This document shows, in pieces, positions 11,136 through 28,800 of a stretch of DNA of 64,000 bases. The translations under genes were made by a program, and so were the position numbers. Source of the DNA: Pseudoflavitalea sp. G-6-1-2 (GTDB lineage Bacteria > Bacteroidota > Bacteroidia > Chitinophagales > Chitinophagaceae); assembly GCF_012927185.1 (NCBI RefSeq), contig NZ_JABBGB010000004.1, positions 1 through 64,000 of the forward strand, in the 5' to 3' direction. The notes beneath the pieces were generated by a model. It was given only the letters and a program-made list of their open reading frames with translations. It searched no databases and had not been told where the DNA came from. The first letter of the stretch is position 1; each line of letters begins with the position of its first letter.

Positions 11136-11157
11136 CTGAGATATGTTTAGAACGAAG

Positions 11158-12369: not shown

Positions 12370-12383
12370 CACTCCCTTACAAC

Positions 12384-12455: not shown

Positions 12456-12465
12456 CAAAAGTCTG

Positions 12466-12493: not shown

Positions 12494-12723
12494 TTTTTAG
12501 ACTCTTCCGGAACCAGTTTAAAACCTGATCATAATCTACAAAATCACTGCCCCGGAAGAACTATTGTGCAACTTTTTCACAGCAAACTTCAGCTCCTTCT
12601 TTCCTGTTTTAGCATCACTTTTATTCTATTCTGAAATTTCTTCTCATTGTTTTCTATAAGCTGAACTCCCCTGAAATAAACTATTATTGAAGAAGAATCA
12701 TTACCAAACCTGAATACAGAACT

Positions 12724-13020: not shown

Positions 13021-13185
13021 AGCAATTCGGGCCCGAATTGCTTACGCGACACGGAAAAACTCAACCCCCAATCATGAAACCCGCATTAAAAATGTGCAGA
13101 ATTGCTCAATTCAGGGTGTTAAATCGGTAATAACACCCTCCGCCTTGTTCCATATGTAAACCGAAGAAACTATATTCGTTCCCAC

Positions 13186-14070
13186 ATGCAAGGCCTGATT
13201 TATTACATTTCGCTACCGTTCATCTATTTGTTGTCCCTACTTCCGTTTCCAATCTTATACATAGTTTGTGATGGGTTTTACTTTGTGCTCTACTATATTG
13301 TCGGCTATCGCAAAAAAGTAGTGATGCAAAACCTGCGCAATTCTTTCCCCGATAAATCGGAAGCAGAATTAAAAAGGCTGTGCAAGGATTTTTACCATTA
13401 TCTCTGCGATCTCTTTCCTGAAACCTTCAAAACACTTACCATCAGCAAATCTTCCATGCTGAAGCATTGCACATTAAGTGCGGAGGCAAAAGAAATTTTC
13501 GACAGATACCACCAGGAAGGGAAAAGCATCATCATAGTAATGGGACATTATGGTAATTGGGAATGGGCCGGCAATACATTCAGCCTTACCTGCAAACAAA
13601 AACTGTTTGTAGTGTACCATCCGCTTTCCAACAAATACCTCAACGGATTGATGTATCATATGCGTACGCGTTTCGGCACCGGACTGATTGCCATGCGCGA
13701 TACATTCAAAGACATGGTGCGGAATAAAACAATGATCAGCGCCACAGCATTCATCGCAGACCAAACCCCACAACCAGACAACGCCTTGTGGACAACCTTT
13801 CTCAACCAGGACACGCCCGTTTTCCAGGGAACAGAAAAGATTGCCAAAAAAATGGATTATCCCATAGTATACATAACAATAAAGCGCCTGAAAAGAGGTT
13901 ATTATACTATACTGGCCGAAGTATTGTCGGAAGACTCTAAAAATACTACTGACGGAAAGATCACAGAATTACACACCAGCAGATTAGAAAAAGATATTAA
14001 GGAACAGCCCGAATTATGGCTCTGGACACATAAACGATGGAAGCATAAACGCCCGGCAGTTAAAAGTTAA
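13186..14070 (+). CDS. Lipid A biosynthesis-type lysophospholipid acyltransferase
   Basis: A 294-residue member of the LpxL/HtrB acyltransferase family, which adds secondary acyl chains to lipid A or related lipids at the inner face of the cytoplasmic membrane. An N-terminal hydrophobic segment (YISLPFIYLLSLLPFPILYIV) anchors it, and GHYGNWEW near residue 121 supplies the His-x4-Glu catalytic motif. Later motifs FIADQTP and the GTEK acceptor region agree. It is followed after 28 nt by a fatty-acid desaturase, so the two may modify membrane lipids together. A TATATTCG element at 13171-13178 is a possible -7 box. Confidence 0.88.
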   Translation: MQGLIYYISLPFIYLLSLLPFPILYIVCDGFYFVLYYIVGYRKKVVMQNLRNSFPDKSEAELKRLCKDFYHYLCDLFPETFKTLTISKSSMLKHCTLSAEAKEIFDRYHQEGKSIIIVMGHYGNWEWAGNTFSLTCKQKLFVVYHPLSNKYLNGLMYHMRTRFGTGLIAMRDTFKDMVRNKTMISATAFIADQTPQPDNALWTTFLNQDTPVFQGTEKIAKKMDYPIVYITIKRLKRGYYTILAEVLSEDSKNTTDGKITELHTSRLEKDIKEQPELWLWTHKRWKHKRPAVKS

Positions 14071-14098
14071 ATGTTAAAAATCCCCTTACTCTCAAGTT

Positions 14099-15073
14099 AT
14101 GCAAATCAAAACGGGCAGGCAATTGATCCTTGCTACAAAACCCTTTGCTAAAGAAATCGTCTGGAAAAGCTGGTTATTCAGCATTTCTACCTTAGCAATT
14201 CTGACAGCCTTCTTTGCAGGCATTTATTTTCTGGAAAACAGTTTATTACGGATTGCCTGCAGTCTCGCCGCAGGACTTACCATGGTTCGTATGTTTGTGA
14301 TCTATCACGATCACCAGCATCACACCATACTGAACCGGTCAATGCCTGCAAAGGTGCTTTTCACTTTGTATGGTATTTTCATTCTCGCTCCCACCAGCAT
14401 CTGGAAGCGCTCACATGATTATCATCACAACCACAATTGCAAATTATTCAGCGCCAGTATCGGATCGTATCCTATCATGACCAAGCAACGGTTTCTGCAA
14501 TCATCCAAAGCAGAACAGAGAAGCTACCTGGCCATCCGACATCCGCTGACTATTTTTTTCGGCTATATCACCATGTTCATTTTCGGCATGTGTGTACGTT
14601 CTTTTATGAGTGCGCCTAAGCGTCACTGGGATTCAATGATCGCATTGATTGTTCATTTCACTGCCAGCGTATTGATCTTTGTTTACCTGGGTTGGTTTAC
14701 CTGGCTACTCGCTGCTGTAGTGCCTTTTATGCTGGCCTTTATGATCGGAGCTTACCTGTTTTATGCACAGCATAATTTTCCGGGAGCCACTTTCCGTGAA
14801 AAAGACGACTGGTGTTACGAAGAAGCAGCGATCTCCTCTTCGAGCTATATGGTGATGAATCCATTCTGGAAATGGGTAACCGCCAATATCGGCTACCATC
14901 ATATCCACCATATGAATTCGAAGATTCCGTTTTATCGCCTTCCTGAGACCATGGCCAGTCTTCCGGAATTGCAGAAAGCAAAAACAACTTCATTGAATCC
15001 ATGGGATATCGTAGCATGTTTCAGATTGAAAGTCTGGGACCCGAATGCAAATGCTTTGGTAGGATTGAAATAG
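14099..15073 (+). CDS. Membrane fatty-acid desaturase
   Basis: A 324-residue integral-membrane di-iron desaturase. The three histidine clusters are visible: YHDHQHH (about residue 70), SHDYHHNHN (about 103) and YHHIHH (about 266), separated by hydrophobic helices. Such enzymes insert double bonds in acyl chains; related families also hydroxylate carotenoids, and the exact substrate cannot be read from sequence. It lies 28 nt after the acyltransferase and ends at a strong terminator, forming a two-gene operon. Confidence 0.88.
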   Translation: MQIKTGRQLILATKPFAKEIVWKSWLFSISTLAILTAFFAGIYFLENSLLRIACSLAAGLTMVRMFVIYHDHQHHTILNRSMPAKVLFTLYGIFILAPTSIWKRSHDYHHNHNCKLFSASIGSYPIMTKQRFLQSSKAEQRSYLAIRHPLTIFFGYITMFIFGMCVRSFMSAPKRHWDSMIALIVHFTASVLIFVYLGWFTWLLAAVVPFMLAFMIGAYLFYAQHNFPGATFREKDDWCYEEAAISSSSYMVMNPFWKWVTANIGYHHIHHMNSKIPFYRLPETMASLPELQKAKTTSLNPWDIVACFRLKVWDPNANALVGLK

Positions 15074-15094
15074 ATTTTTCATTGACAATATTCC

Positions 15095-15119
15095 AAAAGC
15101 CGCTCCGGGAGCGGCTTTT
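15095..15119 (+). terminator. Terminator of the acyltransferase-desaturase operon
   Basis: Perfect 10-bp stem 15095-15104 with 15110-15119 (AAAAGCCGCT/AGCGGCTTTT), 22 nt after the desaturase stop. Confidence 0.88.
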
Positions 15120-15206
15120 GATGTTTTAAAGAAGTGATGAATGTGATAAGATCTCAGTTGCAGAGCATGATCAGAAAAAAATTTTATGGAGTAATTGAAG
15201 TTTCCC

Positions 15207-15214
15207 TATATTTG
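15207..15214 (+). promoter_or_regulatory. -7 element of tRNA-Glu copy 2
   Basis: TATATTTG, 14 nt before the tRNA, at the same distance as in copy 1. No good TTTG partner is visible at -33. Confidence 0.6.
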
Positions 15215-15228
15215 CACCCCCTTACAAC

Positions 15229-15300
15229 GCCGCGTTCGTCTAAGGGTTAGGACACCACCCTTTCACGGTGGTGATACGGGTTCGAATCCCGTACGCGGTA
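15229..15300 (+). tRNA. tRNA-Glu (anticodon UUC), copy 2, target of the integrative element
   Basis: Identical over 72 nt to copy 1. Its last 14 nt (15287-15300) form the left copy of the 17-bp repeat that bounds the island, so the 3' part of this gene may be element-derived. The tRNA remains intact. The end of the recombinase gene overlaps it on the other strand. Confidence 0.96.
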
Positions 15301-16805
15301 CAAGCCTCTAAATTGAGGAGAACTTCATCGGGCTGGTCAACTTTGATCAGCCCTTTTTCTTTTATTTTAAGGTAGTTAGAAATGAAGGCGGGATTGATCA
15401 TTGGTGTTCGAAGGCACTTTCCGTCGTATATGATCCCAACTTCGAACACCTTATTTAATAGCATCTGCTTCCCCTCCAAAGACAGTTCAGTATATAGTTT
15501 GCTTAGATTACACATTGCGGGAATCACTTCTTCCAACCGATCAAAAGTATTCTGCTTATTCTTTTTCAGCTCTGTTATCTCACGTTCCAAACTTCCCTTT
15601 TCACCGCTCAATTTTGCAAACCACTTCTTATATGTGGCATGTTCAATCTGATCGCTTATTAACTTTTCTTCCAAGCTTTCTATCTTTTTAGTCACCTCGG
15701 CAAGCGCTTGCTCCTTCATCTTAATTACACTTAACCGATAGGCAAGAACTTTGGTTAACTCTTCTTTACTATAGTTCCTGATCCTCTGGACCTGGTCGGA
15801 GGTGAAGCTGAGATCTACAAGCATAGACTCTACAAGGTCATGCAGAACTTCACCCCGATAGTTACGCCCACGTTCCTTTACGCACTGGTAATACATATAG
15901 TATTTCTTTTTTCCCTTGCTGTATGCAGCCGTCATATGACTACCGCAATTGCATTTCAGCACGCCCCGCAAAGGAAATTCATCCTTTGGCCGCGACCTGC
16001 GTCCTTTGCTTCCTTTCAATATATCCTGAGCCACCCAGTACACCGACTCCGGAATAATTGCTTCATGTAAGGCCTTTATGATCCGCTCCGGCTTTTCTCG
16101 ATTAGCAGGTATTTTTATTAATCCGGCATATACACAATTACTGACCACCCGAACCAATGCACTATGCCCGCTTCGCTTAAACCCTTTGCTGGAAGCATTT
16201 TTCAGGATCAACTTATGAGATACACCAGCAATAAATTCATCGAAAATCCCCCTGACGATTTCGGCTTTGTCGGGATCAATTTTTAGAATAGGCCTATCTG
16301 CTTCATCACGCGCATTGACATAACCGAATGGCGCATTATTGACAACACGGCCCGCCTCCATCGCACTGCGCAAGCCTTTGGCGGTTCGCTTCCGGATTTT
16401 CAATAGCTCATGATTTGCCAGCATATACTTTAATGCACGACCTAAGAAAACCTCCGGATCATTAGTATCTAATGTAATTGGCTCGTCAACCGCCAAGACC
16501 TTAACTCCGAATTTCTTTTCAAGCTCTGTAATTTTAGCAAGCGCTTCACTCAGGTTACGACTAAACCGGTCGTGGTCCAGAATCAATAAATACCTTACTG
16601 CCCCTTTATGAGTTTTGATAAAGTTTTCCAGCGCCAAGTAATCAGGCCGGTCGAATGATTCGCTACACTCGCCATCGTCCCGGTAAACCGCCTGCAATTG
16701 CAGTTCATTTCTTACGCAGTATTCTTTGATGGAGGCTTCCTGAGCATCCAACGAATAAACAGACTGATCTTTGGCGCTAATCCGCACATATCCGATTGCT
16801 TTCAT
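15240..16805 (-). CDS. Large serine recombinase (integrase of the element)
   Basis: A 521-residue site-specific recombinase. The resolvase domain (about 1-150) starts YVRISAKDQS with catalytic Ser10 and has the DHDRFSRN motif; a recombinase domain follows (about 155-260), then a zinc ribbon with LKCNCG and YYQC (about 275-315), then a long coiled coil (about 345-430), the layout of phiC31-type integrases. It lies at the left end of the island and should catalyse its insertion and excision. The last 15 residues (ending ITTVKGWCPNP) are encoded antisense to the tRNA-Glu gene. In the excised circle the frame would continue into a different tail. Its gene also contains a terminator serving the tRNA. 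Confidence 0.93.
   Translation of the reverse strand: MKAIGYVRISAKDQSVYSLDAQEASIKEYCVRNELQLQAVYRDDGECSESFDRPDYLALENFIKTHKGAVRYLLILDHDRFSRNLSEALAKITELEKKFGVKVLAVDEPITLDTNDPEVFLGRALKYMLANHELLKIRKRTAKGLRSAMEAGRVVNNAPFGYVNARDEADRPILKIDPDKAEIVRGIFDEFIAGVSHKLILKNASSKGFKRSGHSALVRVVSNCVYAGLIKIPANREKPERIIKALHEAIIPESVYWVAQDILKGSKGRRSRPKDEFPLRGVLKCNCGSHMTAAYSKGKKKYYMYYQCVKERGRNYRGEVLHDLVESMLVDLSFTSDQVQRIRNYSKEELTKVLAYRLSVIKMKEQALAEVTKKIESLEEKLISDQIEHATYKKWFAKLSGEKGSLEREITELKKNKQNTFDRLEEVIPAMCNLSKLYTELSLEGKQMLLNKVFEVGIIYDGKCLRTPMINPAFISNYLKIKEKGLIKVDQPDEVLLNLEACTAYGIRTRITTVKGWCPNP
15287..15303 (+). repeat. attL core: 17-bp direct repeat
   Basis: TCCCGTACGCGGTACAA, spanning the T-arm 3' side and acceptor 3' side of tRNA-Glu copy 2. 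An exact match lies at 24885-24901. Sequences diverge immediately on both sides. Confidence 0.9.
15330..15358 (+). terminator. Element-supplied terminator for tRNA-Glu copy 2
   Basis: Stem 15330-15340 with 15343-15353 (GGGCTGGTCAA/TTGATCAGCCC, one G-T pair; the innermost pairs must open to form a loop), followed by five T. It starts 30 nt after the tRNA and lies wholly inside the recombinase coding sequence on the opposite strand. Confidence 0.65.
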
Positions 16806-16917
16806 GATTCCTCATTTAATAGAAGTTGAACAATTAATGAAGCCACTAACCGCAACAACTCATCTTCCTTCTCTCCCATCGCCCATTTTATTAGGTTTCA
16901 ATAAAAAGAACTATCCC

Positions 16918-16944
16918 TATCTTACATATTCGTAATGTAAGATA
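16918..16944. promoter_or_regulatory. Palindromic operator candidate in the divergent region
   Basis: Perfect 10-bp inverted repeat TATCTTACAT / ATGTAAGATA separated by 7 nt (16928-16934). It lies between the divergent recombinase and the 17000 gene, where a regulator could control both. Confidence 0.5.
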
Positions 16945-16999
16945 AGTTTGGAGAGAATAACAGAGTTATCCAAACATTTTACATAACTTTAAATTGCCT

Positions 17000-17701
17000 A
17001 TGGCAAAGGAATTTTATAACGTCACGTATAAGACCTACCTGAATGATCGGGTAAAAGCAGTCCCATTCAGGGACTCTGAAACTTTCCCGTTATACATTCA
17101 GATCACTTACGACCGGAGAACAACTGCCATAAAGAGCTATTATTTCGAGATATTCCAGCAGGTCAAATACGACTACACAAACACTTCCCTCCGGGACATT
17201 GAACAACTGGAAAACAACGCCATTAACTACGTCATAAATTGGTATTCTGAAAAGTTCGATTTAAACCTGTTTCCTGCGTGGTATCGCATGTTCAGCAAAG
17301 ACATTTTGGAGAGCTTGGATATACCTTTTAAAAACTGGCTTGCAGCATTCCTGCAGAAACAAAAGATTAGTGGTTTTGGCGCATTGATTGAAGCAGGCAT
17401 TCACCAAGTTTCTGCACTGCAAATACTGGAAGAAATACACACAATTTTCCCTTCAGATTTGTACACAAAGATGTTGGCAGAAGCGGCGAAGGAAGCCCCG
17501 CCTTTTATTCCTTTATCTGCCTACGTCCGCACACGCAAGAACACCCCATTTTGCCTGCCCCTGCACGAATGGTTAACGCTTCAGAACTCCCAAGAGATAG
17601 ACGACTTCATGAATGAAAGCCCGGAATGTTGGGGCTATGATATTCTAAAAATCATCCGCTACATCAAGCAATTATTGTATCCGAAAGGCTTTGAACAGTA
17701 A
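17000..17701 (+). CDS. Island protein of unknown function
   Basis: A 233-residue soluble protein that I do not recognise. An in-frame TTG lies at 16994, but the ATG at 17000 is the better start. The N-terminal 60 residues (FPLYIQITYDRRTTAIKSYYFEI) resemble in style the arm-type DNA-binding domain found at the start of Bacteroidota tyrosine integrases; no catalytic domain follows. The remainder is helical with many aromatic residues. It is transcribed divergently from the recombinase across a palindrome, so a directionality or target-binding factor is conceivable, but this is speculation. Confidence 0.7.
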   Translation: MAKEFYNVTYKTYLNDRVKAVPFRDSETFPLYIQITYDRRTTAIKSYYFEIFQQVKYDYTNTSLRDIEQLENNAINYVINWYSEKFDLNLFPAWYRMFSKDILESLDIPFKNWLAAFLQKQKISGFGALIEAGIHQVSALQILEEIHTIFPSDLYTKMLAEAAKEAPPFIPLSAYVRTRKNTPFCLPLHEWLTLQNSQEIDDFMNESPECWGYDILKIIRYIKQLLYPKGFEQ

Positions 17702-17704
17702 CGA

Positions 17705-17922
17705 GCAATTTTCGGCAATTGCACCATTTCTGAACAACGAGGCGACGGCTGTGCCTCGCCCTGCCAGATGTACCGTTGTCGGACAACGGACACTGTCACG
17801 CCCTCCGAAGTCGGGCGTGAAACCCAGAATACCACCCATGCACACAGCATGATCAACAGTGCAACAATTAAACGAAACGGCAATGGGCAAGCGGTGTTAT
17901 TGTAATGCAATAACCGCTTGCC
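17705..17922. other. Cluster of five hairpins in a gene-poor stretch (17702-18100)
   Basis: Consecutive inverted repeats: 17705-17710/17717-17722; 17738-17743/17753-17758; 17773-17779/1783-17789 (i.e. right arm 17783-17789); 17796-17803/17813-17820; and 17887-17902/17908-17921 (8+6 bp with a 2-nt bulge). The stretch is GC-richer than its surroundings. It could be a structured RNA, an oriT-like region or a repeat element. Minus-strand frames of 72 and 100 codons cross it, but they look like by-products of the repeats. Confidence 0.5.
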
Positions 17923-18100
17923 TGCTGCTCCCGTTGGTCGCATCAGGGAAAACAAAATCATAAAATATGGATGAAAACAACATCATAAAAAGTGATGCTG
18001 ACCAAAGAAAAAAAGACAGTATTTTTTCCACGGAATAGGGAAAAGGGGTTGCAAAGGCCCGCTAAAGCCAGAGTGCGTTTCCGGTGGTTTTGGAGCCGTC

Positions 18101-18412
18101 CTAGAAAGGCGTTTTCCGGTTGAGCTTCGGCAGCTTCTTGGGGTAGGTTGGGATTGGCTTTGGCGGCACAAAAACTATAGCAAAAAACGTTGCCAACGCG
18201 TATGGATCGTCTATTATCTTCCTCAGCATTTTTACCTGTTCTTCGTGTGAATATTCAGGTTTCAATCGGTTGTCAATTTCCAGTCTGTTAATTAATGCAG
18301 ATAAGGATATATGCTCCAAATAAAAACGGATAATTTGTTCCGGTGTTCTATTCCAAAAACAGCAAAGAACTGCGAAGTCTTCAGTTATGTTTATTTTCTG
18401 TTCCCGGTACAT
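18101..18412 (-). CDS. Hypothetical island protein (103 aa)
   Basis: A 103-residue protein without recognisable family. The central part is helical (IIRFYLEHISLSALINRLEID, EEQVKMLRKIIDD) and the C-terminus is a basic, proline-rich tail ending KLPKLNRKTPF. The start at 18412 overlaps the end of the preceding gene by 22 nt, indicating translational coupling in a three-gene minus-strand cluster. Confidence 0.6.
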   Translation of the reverse strand: MYREQKINITEDFAVLCCFWNRTPEQIIRFYLEHISLSALINRLEIDNRLKPEYSHEEQVKMLRKIIDDPYALATFFAIVFVPPKPIPTYPKKLPKLNRKTPF

Positions 18413-18795
18413 GCAAGTTGTTTTTCATATTGTTTGTACCACTCGCTGATTATCCTTTTTCTTTCCACAGCTAATTCAATGGGGTTATGAATTTGTTCCT
18501 GCACCTTGGTCAATGCCAGCAGAAATGGTAAAGCAATTTTTCTTTTCAATTCAGAAGGTTCATCAGGCAGCCCATCCCGCGCATCGGTCATTGCATTGAA
18601 AAGCAAAGCAGCCGCAGCCTGCGCATTGGTTCTTCCTTGAAACTGCACTCCGCATAAGGATAGCTCAGCAATAAAACCTTCAATGGCAGATGCAGGCGCT
18701 ATGCCAAGACATCTGCACAACTCCCTGAAGCCCGGAGGGTATACTGCAGATACCACAAACGGGCCAGCCTTGATGAATCCTTGTTTCTGTTTCAT
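18391..18795 (-). CDS. Hypothetical island protein (134 aa)
   Basis: A 134-residue, mainly helical protein of unknown function. It has a Cys pair near the N-terminus (ELCRCLGIA), an Ala-rich helix (GRTNAQAAAALLFNAM) and a charged C-terminal helix (ELAVERKRIISEWYKQYEKQ). No membrane segment or signal peptide is visible. It is the middle gene of the cluster, 48 nt after the 84-residue gene and overlapping the next by 22 nt. Confidence 0.65.
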   Translation of the reverse strand: MKQKQGFIKAGPFVVSAVYPPGFRELCRCLGIAPASAIEGFIAELSLCGVQFQGRTNAQAAAALLFNAMTDARDGLPDEPSELKRKIALPFLLALTKVQEQIHNPIELAVERKRIISEWYKQYEKQLACTGNRK

Positions 18796-18843
18796 AGGGT
18801 AGCTTTTGGATAGGTCAACCTTCCGCCGCTGACCAGATCCTAT

Positions 18844-19098
18844 TTATGCGCAAGTGGTATACATTGTATGAGCCGTTTCTATCAGGTTGCCGATCCTTCT
18901 GACAAAATCCATTAGCAACCATTTTTCCCCGCGCTCCAGGTCTCCATAACTTTCTGTAACCAGAGTATTTCGTAAATGGTCGAGTTCTTCTCTGGTATGA
19001 TCAATTGTATCACCATTAAAGAACTGCTGAAGGTTAGTCCGGAAATCACCGGATAACTTGAACTCAGGCAAGGCTGAGGAAGTGTTAGCAGGTGTCAT
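18844..19098 (-). CDS. Hypothetical island protein (84 aa)
   Basis: An 84-residue acidic helical protein with no family I can name (REELDHLRNTLVTESYGDLE, WLLMDFVRRIGNLIETAHTMY). It is first in a three-gene minus-strand cluster. Its mRNA leader would contain the long nested hairpin at 19158-19266, whose edge is 60 nt upstream of the ATG, so folding could control translation or transcription of the cluster. Confidence 0.6.
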   Translation of the reverse strand: MTPANTSSALPEFKLSGDFRTNLQQFFNGDTIDHTREELDHLRNTLVTESYGDLERGEKWLLMDFVRRIGNLIETAHTMYTTCA

Positions 19099-19157
19099 AG
19101 GAATTATATTGAAGTGAGAAGAAGGGTAAATAAAAAAAGACGTGGGTTAGTCCCTAC

Positions 19158-19266
19158 GTCTCCAAGGGCTACGACACCCCGACAACGAATAAGGACGCCC
19201 ACGCCGTAACGTGAGCGATTTACCTTATTTCTCGTTGTCAAACAAAAGGTCGTAGAATTTGGAGAC
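19158..19266. ncRNA. Long nested hairpin: candidate structured leader RNA or small RNA
   Basis: Six co-linear helices nest perfectly: 19158-19165/19259-19266 (8 bp), 19169-19175/19249-19255 (7), 19181-19188/19232-19239 (8), 19188-19194/19223-19229 (about 7, sharing one base), 19196-19198/19215-19217 (3) and 19200-19203/19210-19213 (4, loop CCGTAA). About 36 bp form in 109 nt. It lies in the 394-nt gap 19099-19492, upstream of the minus-strand cluster. It matches no family I know; strand is undetermined. Confidence 0.6.
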
Positions 19267-19492
19267 CGAGAATAAAGCAAACACGCTTAAATATCTTATG
19301 TGTTCGCAAATCTATATTAAGAATCAGGAACTATCGTACAAAATCATTTTAAAGGAAATTAATCTCCTAATAAAGTTAATAAATGATATTTAAAATACCA
19401 AATACATACATTAAATATCTCACATTTCCTCAAATGTTCAGTTGTTCCTTTTTTTCTGTTAGTTGCCTTTGAATCATCATAAAAAGGCAAAA

Positions 19493-19720
19493 ATGCCAGT
19501 AAGAAGAAAGCGATATAACAGAATAAAACTTGTTCTCTATGAGAATGAGAAAAGTAATGGGTGGCTTGCAGAAAAGGTAGGTGTGAAAACGGTTACCGTT
19601 TCCAAATGGTGCTCGAATGTGAATCAACCGTCAATTGCCACTTTGTATGTAATTGCGGACGCTCTGGAGGTGAGTGTATTTGACCTCTTAGTCCCCAATG
19701 GTCATGCAAAGAAAAACTAG
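19493..19720 (+). CDS. XRE-family helix-turn-helix regulator
   Basis: A 75-residue single-domain DNA-binding protein. The ATG at 19493 is preceded by AAAAAGG and gives the typical Bacteroidota start MPVRRKRYNRIKLVL. The helix-turn-helix is NGWLAEKVGVKTVTVSKW followed by QPSIATLYVIADALEV. Proteins of this subfamily often accompany restriction and other defence genes as controllers. It lies 244 nt upstream of the SIR2-Argonaute gene on the same strand and is its most likely regulator. Confidence 0.85.
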   Translation: MPVRRKRYNRIKLVLYENEKSNGWLAEKVGVKTVTVSKWCSNVNQPSIATLYVIADALEVSVFDLLVPNGHAKKN

Positions 19721-19964
19721 GGCCAGAAAACTCCGCTAACATTGAGATTCCTCCTCTATCAAACAAGCGGTATACTATTTTAATTTCCTAAGATAACCAC
19801 CTACTCTACCTCCTTTATTAAGAGCTATATCTATTAAAATTCGTATAATTGTTATCCACCGTTCCATTATTCAGATCATAGTTGCTACCCTTTATTAGCT
19901 CATTAGGATGCCATGCGGATGGCTTACATCCGTAAAGCGCCTTTTAGTTTATATTTTATTAAAC

Positions 19965-22900
19965 ATGACCTCATCTATGGAATACGAATTGCCGTATGAT
20001 GCCTTCTTAAGGACCCTTAAACAGAATACCGATACAAGCCATGTTGTTCTTTTGGGAGCAGGAGCTTCCATTAGTTCAGGAATACAGTCAGCAGCAGACT
20101 GCATTTGGGAGTGGAAAAGGGATATATTCCTGACCCACAACACGCATCTTCCCAGTGAATACAAGGAGTATAAAAGTGATACGGTCCAGCGCAGTATTCA
20201 AAACTGGTTGGACAACCAAGGTGGCTACCCCATAGAAGGAGCAATTAACGAATATTCCTTTTACGCAGAGAAGGCCTACCCGATCGACGACATCCGCCGA
20301 AAATACTTCGAGAACATTTGCCGAAATAAGATTCCGAACACCGGTTACATGATTCTCAGCCTACTGGCGAAGGTCGGTATGGTTAGAACTGTGTTTACCA
20401 CTAACTTCGACGACCTTGTAGAAAAGGCAGCCTACCTTTCAAACATTACTCCTTTTGCTGTTTCTCTGTCTAATCCCCAGGAGATACACCGGCCAGAAAG
20501 CAATGATCATGTGCTAACTGTTGCCCTCCATGGTGATTTTAAATACGGCCCTCTAAAAAACACGGCGCAAGAGCTAGATGCCCAGCATGAGGTCTTTACT
20601 CAGGCCTTGACTGACCATCTGAAAAACAAACATTTAATTATATGCGGATACAGCGGACGCGATAAAGCACTGATGACCGCATTAAAGACCGCTTATGAGG
20701 CTCCGGGATCTGGCATGGTGTTCTGGTGCGGATATGGTAGTTACATGAATAATGATGTAAAAGAATTTCTTGACCATGCCAGAACTCACGGTCGTAGTGC
20801 CTTCTATGTTGCTACAGAAGGATTTGATATAACTATGTACCAAGCAGCAATGACATGCTTTAAAGGTAATGCCCCTTATGAGGTGGAACTGGAAAAAATA
20901 ATAAGGGACAGGCCTGATGAAACTAGAATAAATACTCCCTTTTCTATTACATCGGGACATTACCATAATTTATTGAAAAGTAACTTGTTTCCTATCATTT
21001 TTCCCACAGAAGTTTTCCAATTCAAAACAACCCATACAAATGAGACTGACCTATGGCAGTTTATCAAAGCCAATGCGCTCAATAGTAACATTGTAGCAGT
21101 CCCTCTAAAAGGAGTTGTTTATTGTTTTAGTACACAAACTACCATAAGGCAGATTTTTGGCTCAGTTATACTGGGCAATATTCAAAGAACACCCGTGACT
21201 TATAAGGAGGTAAAGAACGGAACTCAGTTTCGTAAGTTATTCTTATCGGCCATAATTCAATCAATTTGCAGCAAATACTCACTTCAGACTGATGGTTGGT
21301 CAAACATTTATCTGCCGCAAACAAAGAACCAAAAGATTCTTAACGGTGTAACATATGATGTTTACGATGCCTTTGAGTTATCCCTTTTTTTTGATGTTAA
21401 TGCATTTGGAGCTAAGCCATATGCCTACATAAGTGTGAAACCTTCTTTTTATCTTCCAACAGATGTGAAAGTAAGTAAGGAGGTCAGGCTAGCGCTCGGC
21501 AAAGAACACCATCAAAAGATTATGGGAACAAGGCCAAATGTTGGTTACAGCAACCAAATTGAAGTTTTCCGCAATGCCATTTTCCCTAACGACAAATCAA
21601 TTTCGTTGGAGTTTCCCAATGAACAGGCCTCTGATTTTAAATTTCAATTAGGAGCTAACCCAATGCTTGTGGCCATCACTAGCCAACAGGGAGGATATGT
21701 GATCAATTTCCCACAGGACTTTAATAGTAAGGCTATTGTACATCATGGCGTCCAATATAGAGAGCCGCTAATGCAGTTTTTTGACAGAACAACTGCTCGG
21801 ATGGAACCTGATTTTCACCCAATGAGGGGCTTAATCAAACATGGCCCCTACGATTTCCCCCTTAATGGTAACCTTTACGACGCAGAAGTAAACCTAGGTA
21901 TTATTTGTCCCTTAGGCTTTGAAACCCAACTATTCAATTTCTTAAACCGCCTTAACCGCCCACAGCCATCAGGCACTTATAACCCAGACTACCTGATTGA
22001 CTACCCTGGCTTTAATGCTGCATATGCTGTGCCGCTCAACATTGCCGACCCTAAAAGTGATTTGTGGCAAACAATAGTAGATCCTTCTGGAAATGATCAT
22101 TTGACAACCGCCAGAGATTTAGCAGAGAAAATAAAAAAAAGCCTTAATCAGTTTGATGGAATCAGCAAGCGCCACGTGGTAGTAATATTTATCCCAGAAA
22201 AATATGAGCCGTATACCCGTGTAGAAACCGACACAGAAGTGTTTAATCTGCACGACTACATTAAGGCTTATGCGGCTCAAAAAAATTTGGCGACACAGTT
22301 TCTAAGGGAAGACACCTTCATAGACAATTTATTTTGTCAGGTTAATTGGTGGCTATCTCTGTCTTTCTATGTTAAGAGTCAGCGAACTCCATGGGTACTG
22401 CAAGGACTTGACCAGCATACCGCTTTTGTTGGTATAGGGTACAGTGTAAAACGAAAAGAAAAGAATAGTCACGTTGCTCTGGGTTGTAGCCACATCTATA
22501 ACGCTTATGGACAGGGGCTAAAGTATCGACTGACGAAAGTGGAGGATTGTGAATTTGATAGAAAAAACAACCCTTATTTATCGTATTCCGAAGCCTACAA
22601 ATTCGGCAACATGATCAGGGATCTTTTTCTCACAAGTTCAGGGCAAATACCCAAAAGGGTAGTTGTACACAAAAGAACACATTTTAAGGAGGCCGAAATT
22701 AAGGGGATAACCGATAGCTTGAGAAAATCGGGTATTACTCTAATAGATCTTGTTGAAGTCAATTTTGAAGGCGATGCCAGATTTATACTTCAAAATATCT
22801 ATCAGCAGAGCATTACCCCGAATTTCTTCCCATTACATCGAGGTTCTTGCTTTGTCCTCGACCGCACTTCAGCATTACTCTGGACGCATGGAGTAGCCCC

Positions 22901-23165
22901 ATCTGTGAAAGATGAAGTCAAAAGAAGTTATTTTCTCGGCGGGAAAAGTATTCCAGTACCGCTTAAGGTCATCAAACATTACGGTTCCAGCAACATTGAC
23001 ACCATAGCAACTGAAATTCTTGGACTAACCAAAGTAAATTGGAATAGCTTCGATATGTACGCAAAACTTCCAGCCACACTGCAATCGTCGAACGAAATCG
23101 CGAGGATTGCTTGGTTGCTTAATAGGTTTGAAGGGAAGAATTATGATTACCGACATTTTATGTAA
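19965..23165 (+). CDS. Single-chain SIR2-APAZ-short Argonaute (SPARSA-type defence NADase)
   Basis: A 1066-residue fusion. Residues 20-300 are a SIR2-like domain: nucleotide loop LLGAGAS (29-35), catalytic Asn147 in TTNFDD, His189 in ALHGD, then LIICGYSGRD. The middle (about 330-700) would be the APAZ region. From about 735 there is a MID-PIWI module: RHVVVIFIP, the guide 5'-phosphate pocket style HDYIKAYAAQKN, a PIWI start FVGIGYS and PKRVVVHKRTHF. The slicer Asp of the first motif is replaced (GIGYS), so it should not cut nucleic acid. In known SPARSA systems guide-directed target binding activates NAD+ depletion and kills infected cells. Here both parts are in one chain. The start at 19965 is chosen over 19908 for lack of domain upstream; 19977 is also possible. 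Confidence 0.88.
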   Translation: MTSSMEYELPYDAFLRTLKQNTDTSHVVLLGAGASISSGIQSAADCIWEWKRDIFLTHNTHLPSEYKEYKSDTVQRSIQNWLDNQGGYPIEGAINEYSFYAEKAYPIDDIRRKYFENICRNKIPNTGYMILSLLAKVGMVRTVFTTNFDDLVEKAAYLSNITPFAVSLSNPQEIHRPESNDHVLTVALHGDFKYGPLKNTAQELDAQHEVFTQALTDHLKNKHLIICGYSGRDKALMTALKTAYEAPGSGMVFWCGYGSYMNNDVKEFLDHARTHGRSAFYVATEGFDITMYQAAMTCFKGNAPYEVELEKIIRDRPDETRINTPFSITSGHYHNLLKSNLFPIIFPTEVFQFKTTHTNETDLWQFIKANALNSNIVAVPLKGVVYCFSTQTTIRQIFGSVILGNIQRTPVTYKEVKNGTQFRKLFLSAIIQSICSKYSLQTDGWSNIYLPQTKNQKILNGVTYDVYDAFELSLFFDVNAFGAKPYAYISVKPSFYLPTDVKVSKEVRLALGKEHHQKIMGTRPNVGYSNQIEVFRNAIFPNDKSISLEFPNEQASDFKFQLGANPMLVAITSQQGGYVINFPQDFNSKAIVHHGVQYREPLMQFFDRTTARMEPDFHPMRGLIKHGPYDFPLNGNLYDAEVNLGIICPLGFETQLFNFLNRLNRPQPSGTYNPDYLIDYPGFNAAYAVPLNIADPKSDLWQTIVDPSGNDHLTTARDLAEKIKKSLNQFDGISKRHVVVIFIPEKYEPYTRVETDTEVFNLHDYIKAYAAQKNLATQFLREDTFIDNLFCQVNWWLSLSFYVKSQRTPWVLQGLDQHTAFVGIGYSVKRKEKNSHVALGCSHIYNAYGQGLKYRLTKVEDCEFDRKNNPYLSYSEAYKFGNMIRDLFLTSSGQIPKRVVVHKRTHFKEAEIKGITDSLRKSGITLIDLVEVNFEGDARFILQNIYQQSITPNFFPLHRGSCFVLDRTSALLWTHGVAPSVKDEVKRSYFLGGKSIPVPLKVIKHYGSSNIDTIATEILGLTKVNWNSFDMYAKLPATLQSSNEIARIAWLLNRFEGKNYDYRHFM

Positions 23166-23466
23166 CCCCTATATTTCATTGATATCCAAGCACTAATCAC
23201 GCTAAACCATCCTCTATTCTGATTATAATCAATTAGTGGTTCACCCAAAAGTATTTTGTGAAAGAGTGTAATATTTAGGTACATTTAACTACTTACAATA
23301 AGATCCTCCGTTGTTTAGGCTAATAAACATAGTGTGATAGATTTCTATCTATATGAAAGTCGCCTCATTCAACGCCGTCCCTTTAGAATACGACCTATTA
23401 TATCATTCCAATCTAGGGTTACAGGCGTAGCCTTAAATTCCCATATTTGTTAATAACAACACCGAA
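23166..23466 (+). other. 301-nt gap without gene
   Basis: AT-rich. I see no open frame, terminator or tRNA. Near its end, ATATTTG at 23442-23448 lies about 18 nt before the next ATG and could be part of a weak -7 element. Confidence 0.4.
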
Positions 23467-24762
23467 ATGACACAGAAATCATTTAATAGTATTTTAGTGC
23501 TATTATCTTTAGGCATTATTTTATGTTTAAGTTTTGTAGCATTTACTGAATTAACTTCAAAAGAAACTACGTTACTTGGTATTGTTCTAACAGTGCTTTC
23601 ATTTATCGCATCATGGTTAGTGTCAAAATATTTCGCAGATAAATCACATAAGCATGCGATCGAAGAAGTAAAAGAACAACATTTGTCTAACCTAAGAACG
23701 TATGCTTTGAATGCAGCAGAAAAAGTCAATAACTTATCTAATGAGTTAGCGCGACTATCTGTTTATCTTCAGCAAGAACTCGAGGAGGATGATGATGAGC
23801 TGAGCACAGAAGAATTGTATTTATCAAGTTACGAAAGACTTGAAAGTGCTGTTCACATAATCAATACTTTAAAATCCGTGAATGACACTTATTTAAGTGA
23901 CTGGAAAGGCGTTATTGGAGAAGAATTAGACGAAAAACTTGAGGAACAGCAGGAAAGAGAAAACGAACTAAAAGAGTTGGTGGAAAAAGTCGAACAAATC
24001 ATCAAAAACAAGCCACAAGAAAGCCAACTTAATCAGCTTGAAGTGCAAAACATCAGTAAACAAATTAATGACTTAAGAAAAGAGCTTAATTTAACATTAA
24101 ATAGTGTTAGCGGAACATTTGTAAGACCCCTTAGAAACATCCCAAAAACGACAAAAGAAAATGTTCAAAATCATTGCCCTCAATGCAATACAAGCATTTC
24201 ATATAAACAAAGACCCAAAGCATCAAGTATCAAGTTCTTAAACTGCACCCACTGTTCAATAAAACTATCCTCAACTTGGTCTAAAGACTTAGGTTTTGTT
24301 TTGGCAGGAGAGACATTCATTGAAGAAACAGTAAAGTGTGCAACCTGCCATGCCAATATTAGTACCCTTCTAAGCAACTTCCCAACTTCCAAATCTGTGA
24401 CAGAATGTGCAGCCTGTGGAGAAGCAAATCAAATTGTTAGAACAGCAAAGAGTATAACAATAAGCAAAGTTAATAAACCCAAAAACCAACCGATAGTAGT
24501 CAATGCCAGCCAGATTGATAATTCAAACTTTGAGATTATCATTGATGAAAATATTCTACTACAAATACAAAATCTGCTTCCCGCTCAACCTTGGCCGAAA
24601 GGAACTCACAAGGAAATAAGCCAGAAACTGAATCTAAACCCCAAAGTCACTAGCAAACACATTCAGGAACTAATACGTCGAGGAATTTTTAAACCACAAA
24701 TTGATGGTGTTCTTTATGAAGCCATTAGAAATGATTCTGCACCTACTCCCTCGTCAAATTAA
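23467..24762 (+). CDS. Membrane-anchored coiled-coil, zinc-ribbon, winged-helix protein (unknown)
   Basis: A 431-residue protein of no family I know. Two N-terminal transmembrane helices (about 9-29 and 36-55) are followed by coiled coil (about 66-115 and 150-215, rich in Glu/Lys), then two Cys-rich units: CPQC/CTHC (237-240, about 260-263) and CATC/CAAC (about 291-294, 315-318), each like a zinc ribbon, and a C-terminal winged helix (WPKGTHKEISQKLNLNPKVT..HIQELIRRGIFKPQ). It lies 301 nt after the Argonaute gene on the same strand and 122 nt from the right attachment site. Its cytoplasmic part could sense nucleic acid and pass a signal to the membrane; this is inference. Confidence 0.75.
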   Translation: MTQKSFNSILVLLSLGIILCLSFVAFTELTSKETTLLGIVLTVLSFIASWLVSKYFADKSHKHAIEEVKEQHLSNLRTYALNAAEKVNNLSNELARLSVYLQQELEEDDDELSTEELYLSSYERLESAVHIINTLKSVNDTYLSDWKGVIGEELDEKLEEQQERENELKELVEKVEQIIKNKPQESQLNQLEVQNISKQINDLRKELNLTLNSVSGTFVRPLRNIPKTTKENVQNHCPQCNTSISYKQRPKASSIKFLNCTHCSIKLSSTWSKDLGFVLAGETFIEETVKCATCHANISTLLSNFPTSKSVTECAACGEANQIVRTAKSITISKVNKPKNQPIVVNASQIDNSNFEIIIDENILLQIQNLLPAQPWPKGTHKEISQKLNLNPKVTSKHIQELIRRGIFKPQIDGVLYEAIRNDSAPTPSSN

Positions 24763-24803
24763 GCAGCCTCACCAATTCAAATCGCGCAGCCCTAATTGTT
24801 CAT

Positions 24804-24820
24804 TTTAGGGTAACCCTAAA
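24804..24820. promoter_or_regulatory. 17-bp perfect palindrome near the right attachment site
   Basis: TTTAGGGT-A-ACCCTAAA, 8-bp arms around one central base, 64 nt inside the right 17-bp repeat. It could be a recombinase accessory site or a weak transcription stop. Confidence 0.4.
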
Positions 24821-24884
24821 TCACATATTTCTTTTTTAATATATAAAATACTGTTCATAAACTTCACTAGGTGTTCGTACCAGC

Positions 24885-24901
24885 TCCCGTACGCGGTACA
24901 A
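24885..24901 (+). repeat. attR core: 17-bp direct repeat
   Basis: Exact copy of 15287-15303. The following host sequence contains the displaced tRNA-Glu terminator. To the left, GTACC (24877-24881) and GGTAC (24895-24899) form a dyad centred at 24888, as expected of a serine-recombinase half-site pair. Confidence 0.9.
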
Positions 24902-24907
24902 AAATCT

Positions 24908-24937
24908 GAAAGTCGCTGTAGTAGCGACTTTCGTCGT
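24908..24937 (+). terminator. Displaced original terminator of tRNA-Glu copy 2
   Basis: Stem 24908-24917 with 24923-24932 (GAAAGTCGCT/AGCGACTTTC) then TCGTCGTTTT. Nearly the same as the terminator of copy 1 at 12466-12493, showing this was the sequence after the tRNA before insertion. Confidence 0.85.
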
Positions 24938-24956
24938 TTTAGAGCATTTCTGTTTC

Positions 24957-25190
24957 TTACCTGAGCCAACTCCGTCTTCCCCACGCAACCAGTACAGCCA
25001 ACAATCCAAAGAAAACATTTACACCAATCGAAGCAACTTCCCCGCGTGCCACAAGAAATACACTGACTGCCACCATCAGTACAATTATCCCCCAGGCTGC
25101 ATAAACAGTAATTCTTCTCCATTTCTGCAATAAGGCCGGCAACACTAATCCAACACCAGCAAGTAAATCTATCACCCCTGTGAAGAGTCT
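24957..25190 (-). pseudogene. Truncated DoxX-like membrane protein
   Basis: About 78 codons with three hydrophobic helices (TGVIDLLAGVGLVLPALL, VYAAWGIIVLMVAVSVFLV, VNVFFGLLAVLVAW) resembling the C-terminal part of DoxX-like proteins (usually about 120-130 residues). The N-terminal helix and an ATG are missing; only TTG is available upstream at 25205. The sequence runs back-to-back into an HxlR fragment on the other strand, so both lost their 5' ends in a deletion. Confidence 0.65.
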
Positions 25191-25418
25191 AAGCGATTCA
25201 CACAAATATCGAAAGAAGTAGGTGGTGTCACAGACAAAGTACTGTCCAAAGAATTGAAGAACCTGGAAGCGAACCGCCTGATCAAAAGGACTGTTTACGA
25301 CACTTTTCCTCTTACTGTGGAATATTCAATAACAGCCCATGGCCTTTCTCTTGAGAATGTATTGGATGAACTTCATTTCTGGGGATTAGCTCACCGCAAG
25401 AAGATTTTGGGCAAGTAG
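25191..25418 (+). pseudogene. Truncated HxlR-family regulator
   Basis: Translation gives RFTQISKEVGGVTDKVLS, KELKNLEANRLIKRTVYD, TVEYSITAHG and LDELHFWGLAHRKK up to a TAG at 25416-25418. This is the C-terminal two thirds of an HxlR winged-helix regulator (normally about 110 residues). The first helix and start codon are absent, so it is non-functional. HxlR genes are commonly divergent from a DoxX or oxidoreductase gene, as the remnants here are. Confidence 0.8.
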
Positions 25419-25427
25419 TTCAATGGC

Positions 25428-26279
25428 CTATTTTTCAGTCAAACTGGCTCTATAAGCTATTGGAGTTAACCTGCCAATTCTTCTGAGTTGCTCAATTGGG
25501 TCACATTGTATCTTATGAACGTGGCCTTCCTTTTTTGCTAAGTCTGTGATTTGAACAAAATACAGAAATGCTTCCCTACCAAGCTCTTCCAACGTAATTA
25601 CTTCATTCTCCGTAATGAAAAAGTCAACACTGGCAATTAACGACGACTTTACCTCAATGTATCTTGTTTCAATTTTTGTTGAACTGTAAATATCATAACC
25701 AGCCGCAGTATTCTTCACTGAAACCTGATCAACATATGCTTCCGGCTTTTTTATTCCGAGTTCTTTCAAACGTTGTATTTCAAATTTCATAGCAATTGCT
25801 TCCCCAACCTGCCCAATCTCTGTTTGAAGTTTTAAGCTATTCAACAAGTCTTGAGGAGTAATCAGATTTCTCTTTCTGCCTCTTGCCTTTCCAGTTACTT
25901 TCAACGAAATAAAAGAGGCATTATCAGTATTATAGTTGGGAAAGAATGGCGAAATCCAATTTTCAAAAGATTTCCTAACATCTTTCTTAATCACTTCGAT
26001 TGGCGACCATTCAACTCCAGTAAGCCAGGCAATATGTTTCTGTGTTGTTCCTCCATCCGTTTTGTAACGAAACGATCGCAAATAATCTTCAACTATAATA
26101 TTTTTGAAAGCACAGAATTTGGATAGGCCAAATACATCTATTCCATTGACCTTAACATGAACAAAATACCTGGGGCCATTACCGATTGCAGCCTTCCAAA
26201 ATTCCGGCTTACCATAGAACTCTAAGGTTGAGCTTATGAGCTCATCGATATTATCAACAAATTCGTAGTTTGTAGTCAT
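25428..26279 (-). CDS. DUF3883-domain protein, putative PD-(D/E)XK nuclease
   Basis: A 283-residue protein. The C-terminal half matches DUF3883: IGQVGEAIAMKFEIQRLKELG, VSVKNTAAGYDIYSS, then RYIEVKSS and FFITENEV. The Asp of GYDI and Glu-x-Lys of IEVKSS fit a PD-(D/E)XK nuclease active site. The N-terminal 140 residues are not recognised. DUF3883 often appears as a module of restriction-type or helicase defence proteins; here it stands alone, just outside the element and next to the DoxX/HxlR scar. Nuclease activity is inferred from motifs only. Confidence 0.72.
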   Translation of the reverse strand: MTTNYEFVDNIDELISSTLEFYGKPEFWKAAIGNGPRYFVHVKVNGIDVFGLSKFCAFKNIIVEDYLRSFRYKTDGGTTQKHIAWLTGVEWSPIEVIKKDVRKSFENWISPFFPNYNTDNASFISLKVTGKARGRKRNLITPQDLLNSLKLQTEIGQVGEAIAMKFEIQRLKELGIKKPEAYVDQVSVKNTAAGYDIYSSTKIETRYIEVKSSLIASVDFFITENEVITLEELGREAFLYFVQITDLAKKEGHVHKIQCDPIEQLRRIGRLTPIAYRASLTEK

Positions 26280-26380
26280 TGGAAAAACTCATGATTTTCT
26301 AAATATACATAACTCCTTAGCTTCCCGGAATATTAAGTAAAGAAGAGAATCAGGAAAGTTGAAATTTGGGAAAACCGTTT

Positions 26381-27217
26381 TTATATTACCCTCTTCATCT
26401 CAAACTGATTAATAAAATTCACCAGTCCCTGCTTCTTCAAAAACCATGACAGCTCTTCCCCCACCTCATCAACATTATTCATTTGTGCTTTCGCCTGCGG
26501 CATTTGTTGCCGCATCTCTGCAAAAAGCTGCGTTGCAATTCCTTTTCTCCGATGATCTTTCGATACCGCCAACTGATAAACCCGATTGTTACCCGGATTG
26601 AAAATCACATACCCCACCAGCACATCATCTATATACGCTCCCAATGCTTTAGGCTGTATGATCTCTATGCTTTGATGGGCATTCTGCCAGCTTGGTTCAA
26701 TATCCCAAAACGATTGAAGCAGAGTCCACGAATAATCCTTCAATGGTCTGATGTCTGCAACTTTTGAATGATCATCAGTTTTGATCTCTCCGGCAAAACA
26801 CAAAAACTTCCGACAAATCATGAATTCATTCTTCTCATATGCACGAATGGCAGATTGATTGCGCTCAATCACTTCGAGTTTCATCTCATCTACCTGCTGC
26901 TGTTTCATTAACGGCAGTAAATATTCATACATCTTCCCAACCAATCCTTGTCCACGAAACTCAGGCAGTACGCCCGTTCCAGCATTATAGACTATTTTGC
27001 TTCCATTTATTGCCCGCAATCCATGCATCATGGTCGCAACCATTCTATTCTGCTCAAAAACTCCGGCAGACAATTCCAACTGAATATGCTCCGAAGCCAT
27101 TTTCAGCTGCAATTGATCCGTATTTAGTTGATATGGCACCACATAATCCGCAAACGCACCATTGATGGCAAGTAACAGATTGCCCGTATCCTGAACTGTA
27201 AGATTTCGTATTAGCAT
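26381..27217 (-). CDS. GNAT N-acetyltransferase (tandem domains)
   Basis: A 278-residue acetyltransferase with two GNAT folds. The first carries the acetyl-CoA loop LPEFRGQGLVGKMYEYLLPLM; the second has YQLAVSKDHRRKGIATQLFAEM with the canonical R/Q-x-x-G-x-A/G loop. The acceptor is unknown. The ATG at 27217 is chosen; the codon two triplets upstream is TTG. It stands alone between the DUF3883 gene and the divergent SGNH hydrolase. Confidence 0.88.
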   Translation of the reverse strand: MLIRNLTVQDTGNLLLAINGAFADYVVPYQLNTDQLQLKMASEHIQLELSAGVFEQNRMVATMMHGLRAINGSKIVYNAGTGVLPEFRGQGLVGKMYEYLLPLMKQQQVDEMKLEVIERNQSAIRAYEKNEFMICRKFLCFAGEIKTDDHSKVADIRPLKDYSWTLLQSFWDIEPSWQNAHQSIEIIQPKALGAYIDDVLVGYVIFNPGNNRVYQLAVSKDHRRKGIATQLFAEMRQQMPQAKAQMNNVDEVGEELSWFLKKQGLVNFINQFEMKRVI

Positions 27218-27435
27218 AATCAATTCTTGTAACGATGAACACTGTTACGATAATGCTGTAATGTACCTAATTGTTTGCTTGATGAATGTGTTTGTACATG
27301 AGCGGGGAATTCAGAAGATGGAGAGACTCGCCTTATTTTTGATGCATAACCAGCACAATAAATTGAATACGGGAGAATATCCATCGGTTTGTACCTTCAG
27401 GCATCATTGCATCACAATCCAATAATGCACGCCAC

Positions 27436-28800
27436 ATGCACAAACGATCATTTCTTTTATCCGGCATCCTTGCAACCCTGTCCCTGACTGGCTTAGCGCA
27501 GCAATCACCTGTATTGTTCCCCGACAAATCAACTGTCTGCTTTGTAGGAAACAGCATCACTCAGAACGGAGAATACATCCACTATATCCGAAGCTACTAC
27601 GCAACAAGATTTCCTGCGAGACAAGTAAAGATGTTCAACTGCGGCATCTCCGGCGATGTTACCGGAGGCATTCTCGCACGCATGCAGCCAGACATCATGT
27701 CGCGCAAACCAGACTATGCCGTAATCATGATCGGCATGAACGACGTTAACCGCCCGCTCTACGACGCCAAATTCAATGGCAACGATAGTGCACAAAAAAA
27801 GAAAGCCGAAGCGCTCGCAACTTACAAAGCCAATCTCACCAAAATAGTCTCTTACCTCGTAGAGCATAAGGTAAAAGTGATTCTGCAAAAACCTTCCATC
27901 TACGATCAAACCGGCAAACTCGGCACCAACAATCTGTTCGGTGTGAACGATGCACTTAAAACCTGCGCTGGCTACATGCAGGAGCTCGCCACCAAATACA
28001 AATTGCCTGTTGTCGACTACTGGACCATCATGACCAACGTAAACAAGGCCATGCAAGCCAAAGACAGCACAGCCACCATCGTAGGAAAGGATCGCGTACA
28101 CCCAGCATCACCCGGACATTTCACCATGGGTTATCAGTTCCTGCATACCACATTGGGTAAAGTTCCCGCTGTGAGCATCAAACTGGCTCCGGGCGTTAAG
28201 AAGCCTGAAGTAACAGGTGCAACTTTTACAGAGTTCAGCTATGGCAGCAATCATATCGGATTTACGTATAAGCCTGCTTTCCTTCCCTACTTTGTGAACC
28301 CTGCAGCAGCGTCTGCGTTGGAGTATATTCCTTTTACCAAAGAACTCAATACAGAATTGCTGCAGATCACTCATATGCCCGCAGGAAATTATGCGTTGAT
28401 GATGAACAATGTAATGGCAGGAGAATTCACTGCGGAGGATTTCAAAAAAGGTATCGATCTCGCATCACTCAATACTCCTGAAACAGAGCAGGCAAAAAAA
28501 GTAGTGGAATATTGCGAAGCCATCCGCAAGCATGAATCAGACATGCGCCAGGTACGACATATGGAATACAGAGTGCTATCGAAACTGCCTAACGGAAACA
28601 TCCCCGACAGCGGCATTGCCATTCTTAAGAGAAAACTTGCAGACACAGCAGTGAAAGGAAACGACCGCATAAACTACGAGCGTTACCTTAAAAACAAAGC
28701 TCACGAAACCGGGCTGTACAAAGAGTTTGACGCCATGTATAAAAAACTGTACAGCATCAACAAACCTGAAGCTATCAGGGTAAGAATTCAAAAAATGTAG
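27436..28800 (+). CDS. Exported SGNH/GDSL-type hydrolase
   Basis: A 454-residue secreted esterase-like enzyme with a signal peptide ending LTGLAQ. The SGNH blocks are present: catalytic Ser in FVGNSITQNG (about residue 37), Gly in the ISGDVTGG block, Asn in GMNDV, and Asp/His in DRVHPASPGH. Members in Bacteroidota act as carbohydrate esterases on plant or bacterial polysaccharides. The C-terminal 200 residues form an extra domain without clear motif. It is a single gene followed by a strong terminator. Confidence 0.88.
   Translation: MHKRSFLLSGILATLSLTGLAQQSPVLFPDKSTVCFVGNSITQNGEYIHYIRSYYATRFPARQVKMFNCGISGDVTGGILARMQPDIMSRKPDYAVIMIGMNDVNRPLYDAKFNGNDSAQKKKAEALATYKANLTKIVSYLVEHKVKVILQKPSIYDQTGKLGTNNLFGVNDALKTCAGYMQELATKYKLPVVDYWTIMTNVNKAMQAKDSTATIVGKDRVHPASPGHFTMGYQFLHTTLGKVPAVSIKLAPGVKKPEVTGATFTEFSYGSNHIGFTYKPAFLPYFVNPAAASALEYIPFTKELNTELLQITHMPAGNYALMMNNVMAGEFTAEDFKKGIDLASLNTPETEQAKKVVEYCEAIRKHESDMRQVRHMEYRVLSKLPNGNIPDSGIAILKRKLADTAVKGNDRINYERYLKNKAHETGLYKEFDAMYKKLYSINKPEAIRVRIQKM

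Follow-up and report, generated by a model that had tools for sequence, protein, structure and literature searches.

The question raised by this locus is what a single reading frame of 1066 codons (19965–23165, forward strand) encodes, and how it came to lie where it does. The frame stands in a 64,000-nucleotide stretch of Pseudoflavitalea sp. G-6-1-2 (GCF_012927185.1, contig NZ_JABBGB010000004.1, forward strand, 1–64,000), which we refer to as the window and for which the original prediction had proposed a single-chain SIR2-APAZ-Argonaute on a small mobile element. Our analysis suggests that the protein is very probably a single-chain short Argonaute of the S1A group, which would act by guide-triggered depletion of nicotinamide adenine dinucleotide (NAD+), and that it is carried as cargo of a 9.6-kb island at a tRNA-Glu gene.

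No stop interrupts the frame along its 1066 codons, and all of the predicted domains do fall within it. Its earliest ATG is at 19908. Translation may begin four codons downstream of 19965, because two relatives, L001 and L002 (L-numbers denote loci of relatives, G-numbers genomes), begin at the methionine of MEYELPY, which an alignment of relatives places at 19977, the probable start. Residues 21–290 (20025–20834) match Pfam SIR2_2 (4.2e-13) and, in a sequence search against solved structures, the GsSir2 chain 8in8_B (2.6e-28), and the Asn and His expected of a SIR2 NADase-type domain at the N-terminus are in place: N147 (TTNFDD) and H189 (LHGD), aligned by hand count with GsSir2 N142 and H186, are invariant in all eight aligned fused proteins, as are GAGAS at 31–35 and SGRD at 230–233. 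A MID-PIWI module without PAZ occupies the C-terminus. The original prediction was right about its presence and wrong about its extent; it had placed the start at residue 700, and the module begins near residue 599, since the match to the GsAgo chain 8in8_C (9.8e-53 in the same search) spans residues 599–1066 (21759–23162). These two chains are the nearest solved structures by sequence. Between the two domains, at about residues 301–598 (20865–21758, putative boundaries), lie a linker and an APAZ-like region, which are supported by full-length PADLOC models (PDLC02384, for full-length single-chain prokaryotic Argonautes (pAgos), covers residues 6–1066 with 1315 bits; Aga_SIR2-PNTD1-PNTD2 scores 595 bits) and by a 627-column Foldseek match of a low-confidence model to 8jkz_A, a GsSir2 chain; the Pfam result for the chain contained no APAZ family.

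The slicer Asp had been described as replaced, and the alignment agrees: GIGYS, at residues 823–827, faces GLSYA of GsAgo and reads GLGYS in one of the eight aligned fused proteins. We take this to be the place of the first motif of the slicer tetrad and, judged on that first motif alone, the slicer motif of the window protein reads as dead. The slicer of GsAgo is likewise dead (PMC10781750). The window protein ends in YDYRHFM and GsAgo in YDYRFFM.

The tree places the protein among similar chains. In a MID-PIWI tree of 34 rows (13 labeled fused and 21 labeled two-gene), all 13 fused rows are separated from the rest by a branch supported at 99/98, and the rows nearest to them are eight two-gene rows including GsAgo. 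The labels follow open-frame length; partners of the distant two-gene rows were not verified individually, and L040 is labeled fused although its frame, an incomplete row, starts near residue 431. The PIWI phylogeny proposed in the original prediction thus sets the single-chain forms apart as anticipated. Their description as a distinct, little-studied clade holds for distinctness, but the clade already has a name and PADLOC models: SIR2-APAZ fusions are called S1A, and S1B is grouped with those types whose APAZ protein is separate (PMC12205087, PMC11156904). The window protein resembles S1A short pAgos in its full-length profile match, domain order, dead slicer motif, SIR2 residues, and place in the tree; it differs only in its individual sequence and its tRNA-Glu island, and no categorical difference was found. 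It belongs to this described group and is an ordinary, well-classified Argonaute system. One single-chain member, PgSir2-Ago, was reportedly tested by Zaremba and co-workers, and a literature search on that name found no paper.

Comparison with better-known systems fits this placement. The two-gene SPARSA system GsSir2/Ago of Geobacter sulfurreducens (8in8, 8jkz) has the same Asn/His dyad, APAZ, MID-PIWI, C-terminal YDYR..M, and dead slicer, but consists of two polypeptides, falls on the other side of the 99/98 branch, and has in H163 a residue that the fused proteins do not conserve. The MID-PIWI parts of SPARDA and SPARTA also match the window protein in sequence and fold searches, whereas, according to papers and PDB titles, their effectors are a nuclease or a TIR domain instead of SIR2, and their solved structures show heterodimers. 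As an observation of its own, genome G435 encodes a SIR2-APAZ part (587 codons) and a MID-PIWI part (469 codons) in the same frame, separated by just one stop codon (L103/L110); L103 was labeled two-gene in the tree and is listed as a single open frame of 1057 in the search table. This arrangement is a possible step between the two-gene and single-chain forms.

Seven fused relatives were found in the genome collection (46–78% identity in the best segment), the closest at 78% and 74%, the latter being L002. In a phylum sample, 28 of 395 genomes gave any match at E ≤ 0.001, and three of these, our own included, held the whole chain in one place; within the same bacterial family (244 genomes, hereafter the family), the corresponding counts at E ≤ 1e-10 were 12 and two, again including our own. 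A second Argonaute copy in the Pseudoflavitalea genome was considered and ruled out, as only a single match was present. None of the 126 plasmid and four phage records having a match reached 80% coverage. The genomic settings vary: transfer and conjugative genes accompany L003, restriction–modification genes accompany L006, L011, and L101, and L040 and L041 lie in IMG/VR viral contigs, although the case for L041 as a prophage is weak (one terminase match below threshold, and no PHROG with an assigned function). In L002, a tRNA-Leu lies 1.6 kb before the Argonaute, and the remnant of a recombinase lies in the interval (55% over 128 aligned residues). A fecal 7.3-kb "Bacteriophage sp." record (L042, MT837260.1) matches residues 9–629 up to near the record end, after a 1200-residue exonuclease V/helicase-like gene. 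Remnants of single-chain Argonautes, 59–71% identical, occur in two family genomes (G621 and G604), and the gene beside one of them (L102) starts almost like the gene adjoining the Argonaute in L004.

The pattern of substitution suggests that the window gene has been maintained. The proportion of nonsynonymous differences (pN) is 0.127, 0.146, 0.278, and 0.285 against L001, L002, L003, and L004, and that of synonymous differences (pS) is 0.82–0.87, a saturated range for which the ratio of substitution rates (dN/dS) is therefore not computable. The low pN against high pS, together with the full-length PADLOC match, indicates from sequence that the frame is not a chance open reading frame (ORF). 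Against L001, the APAZ-like part diverges about twice as fast (pN 0.201) as the SIR2 and MID-PIWI parts (0.102 and 0.097).

Structure prediction, one of the checks suggested by the original prediction, gave a mixed result. The best PDB matches are SPARSA chains: in Foldseek, the whole chain is nearest to 8jkz_A (2.6e-26, TM-score (template modeling score) 0.23 on query length) and the MID-PIWI module to 8jkz_B (2.3e-27, 0.48 on query length). The AlphaFold models themselves are poor, with a mean pLDDT (predicted local distance difference test) of 59.8 for the whole chain and 64.6 for MID-PIWI alone, probably owing to alignments of only 8 and 10 rows. Several points weigh against our interpretation: both models have low confidence, and TM-scores remain below 0.5 in the 50 rows listed per Foldseek answer; the top Foldseek alignments show only 19–26% identity to the GsSir2 and GsAgo chains, and the guide and trigger could therefore differ from those of GsSir2/Ago; and GsSir2 H163, given a role by published simulations, corresponds to N170 in the window protein and to N, S, D, or T among the eight aligned proteins. 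The predicted models are too weak to serve as sole proof of the folds, yet they are consistent with the sequence result.

How might such a protein act? In GsSir2/Ago, the SIR2 domain is set free by target DNA that has paired with the guide, and a PIWI loop senses the pairing (PMC10474274). A similar chain of events is our best guess for the window protein, because the residues and domain order are alike. By analogy with this and other studied relatives, the MID-PIWI module would hold a small guide, presumably RNA; pairing of the guide with invader DNA would change the shape of the APAZ/PIWI channel and release the SIR2 domain; and the released domain would hydrolyze NAD+, stopping the cell before the invader spreads. 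The guide type, trigger, NADase activity, and abortive outcome in this scheme are those expected from the relatives. The Argonaute would thus be the defence cargo of the integrative island.

The island itself is real and has clean ends. Its target, tRNA-Glu(ttc), lies at 15229–15301 (forward strand), and the left attachment core (attL, TCCCGTACGCGGTACAA, 15287–15303, forward) covers the 3′ end of the tRNA gene and two bases beyond it. The same 17 bp recur as the right core (attR, TCCCGTACGCGGTACAA, 24885–24901, forward), 9598 bp away; the longest repeat in 20 shuffles was 11 bases. The right side resembles a native tRNA-Glu flank, in that the 56 nt at 24885–24940 are 93% identical to 12442–12497, which take in the 3′ end of the other tRNA-Glu (12384–12456) and its downstream flank. 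The small mobile element first proposed is therefore present, about 9.6 kb long and seated at a tRNA-Glu 3′ end. A query joining the two flanks found partial matches in all six genus genomes, our own included, and matches running past query base 147, into the right flank that is unique to this site, in our own genome only; no exact empty site turned up among the six. An intact tRNA gene, a displaced 3′ fragment at the other end, and an integrase on board are the marks of a tRNA-gene (tDNA) genomic island. Such islands are said to use a tyrosine integrase (PMC4383910), whereas Pfam recognized only a serine recombinase among the eight element proteins; among these eight, no transfer, phage-structural, or tyrosine-recombinase family exceeded the cutoff. 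The recombinase, of 521 residues (15240–16805, reverse strand; Pfam Resolvase, Recombinase, and Zn_ribbon_recom), has its 3′ end antisense in the tRNA-Glu, and most likely inserted the island there. The original prediction mentioned neither the serine recombinase class of the integrase nor its seat in a tRNA gene.

Between the recombinase and the Argonaute lie an ORF of 235 residues without a family (16994–17701, forward) and three small reverse-strand ORFs with no family above cutoff (18101–18412, 18391–18795, and 18844–19098). An XRE-type helix-turn-helix (HTH) protein of 85 residues (19463–19720, forward; Pfam HTH_3, 2.2e-8) stands directly upstream of the Argonaute and is possibly a regulator; a similar HTH stretch occurs in L069. 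Downstream, a second cargo gene encodes 431 residues (23467–24762, forward) with no Pfam family above cutoff; by eye and from sub-threshold Pfam matches, it has a hydrophobic N-terminal stretch, a coiled-coil-like middle, Cys pairs, and an HTH-like end. Just outside attR, a NOV_C-domain gene (25428–26279, reverse), with a PADLOC PD-T4-1 match of 3.6e-15, may be a further defence gene. Nearer the island, 24957–25420 holds a DoxX-like gene without its N-terminal part and then, by eye, an apparent HxlR-type regulator tail, possibly a scar to the right of the island. Structured RNAs in 11000–28000 were sought and rejected as candidates, since Rfam gave only two tRNAs above gathering scores.

Other explanations for the gene and its surroundings deserve weighing. 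It could be an inactive passenger, intact and folded yet not expressed or non-functional in this host. Broken copies occur among its relatives, as G621 holds two adjacent pieces, one with stops (L102, L111), and G604 a 142-residue open frame matching residues 929–1065 (L104), and the gene adjoining the right attachment site is without its N-terminal part; the window frame, by contrast, is full-length without a stop, retains its catalytic residues, and shows a purifying pattern against four relatives, and we regard the passenger explanation as improbable. It is similarly unlikely that the HTH gene and the 431-residue gene are obligatory partners in a multi-gene system instead of independent cargo. 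Both adjoin the Argonaute on the same strand, and HTH stretches lie just upstream of it in L001 and L005 too, but different neighbors surround L003, L004, L007, L011, and L101, and the 431-residue gene occurs in only three of 244 family genomes, our own included. Its closest relative found (64%, L099) stands beside two other small genes, and none of the frames listed for its 20 kb is Argonaute-like; a joint system with this gene was rejected on that account.

A subtler alternative leaves the mechanism unchanged and alters its target: the protein might guard the island against competing plasmids, phages, and islands, rather than mainly the host. The varied mobile DNA around its relatives, from the conjugative genes of L003 to the viral contigs of L040 and L041, is in keeping with such a role, as is the position of the window and L002 Argonautes, each beside a tRNA gene and a recombinase or what is left of one. 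We give this alternative some weight and consider it the less probable one. NAD+ depletion by an S1A Argonaute carried as defence cargo remains our preferred interpretation.

The Argonaute being ordinary, it is the vehicle that is somewhat unusual, and the class of recombinase is its less expected part. Because the reading frame of the recombinase crosses the attachment site, the last residues of the enzyme should differ between the integrated and excised states: they read ...CTAYGIRTRITTVKGWCPNP in the window, with the frame ending antisense inside the tRNA-Glu, and are predicted to read ...CTAYGAGTNT in the excised circle, so that the tail encoded within 15240–15303 would switch from TAYGIRTRITTVKGWCPNP to TAYGAGTNT. 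The closest known case is DsiB of the Dehalococcoides ssrA islands (PMC3146451), likewise a serine recombinase of an island at the 3′ end of an RNA gene, with a frame that overlaps attL and stops outside the island; there the target is transfer-messenger RNA (tmRNA) rather than tRNA-Glu, the module has six integration genes against the one recombinase recognized here, and the cargo is a reductive dehalogenase. A 2014 database paper states that targeting of tRNA genes is not known for serine integrases, and a mycobacterial serine-integrase island sits away from them (PMC10654092). A literature search, with most subscription papers out of reach, found no obvious other report of tRNA-targeting serine integrases.

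Relatives of the recombinase occur at E ≤ 1e-30 in 82 of 244 family genomes, our own included. Flanks were read at 65 loci (our own, the 24 next best, and 40 picked by rank; L043–L066, L115–L154), and an antisense tRNA or tmRNA gene overlapped the frame end or lay within 300 bp of its stop at 45 of them, spread over 41 of 52 genomes. The frame end of one of these 45, L050, is uncertain owing to an in-frame stop. As a control under a similar, not identical, distance rule, 5 of 128 frames of at least 300 residues from 13 stretches had such a tRNA; one was the window's own recombinase, and the other four were in stretches chosen for holding tRNA-Glu. The share is uneven: three of the eight closest relatives (L043–L050), 14 of the next 16, 14 of the next 20, and 13 of 20 weak ones. 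The nearest (L043, 57%) has no tRNA in its locus, nor does the longer L069, where a Type II methyltransferase-like gene lies near the recombinase. A tRNA repeat of at least 14 bp marks 2 of 22 islands, the window's and that of G556; no such repeat was found in the other 20, including four with less than 20 kb of sequence read. These 20 may be islands longer than the stretch read, islands with shorter cores, or not such islands. The G556 island, from the same genus (L077, 1522–16605), spans 15 kb at a tRNA-Arg with a related serine recombinase (29%); its cargo includes a restriction endonuclease–APAZ protein with a short pAgo and the candidate defence genes PDC-M65A/B, in a defence-family scan that covered seven proteins of L077 and three of L069.

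We lean toward the view that these enzymes form a large serine-integrase family, many members of which target tRNA or tmRNA 3′ ends with a frame that crosses the attachment site, and whose islands repeatedly carry short-Argonaute defence (the window, G556, and probably L002). Our confidence in this view was lowered slightly because only three of the eight closest relatives sit at a tRNA or tmRNA gene; the family is a lead worth following.

An intact Argonaute with close relatives, carried by an island that is small by nature and has defined ends, offers a convenient test of whether a single chain behaves like two-chain SPARSA. The side finding on the integrase matters more if confirmed, as tRNA-directed serine integrases would be a source of predictable bacterial attachment (attB) sites, and such a family, if true, would amend a rule given in published work on islands.

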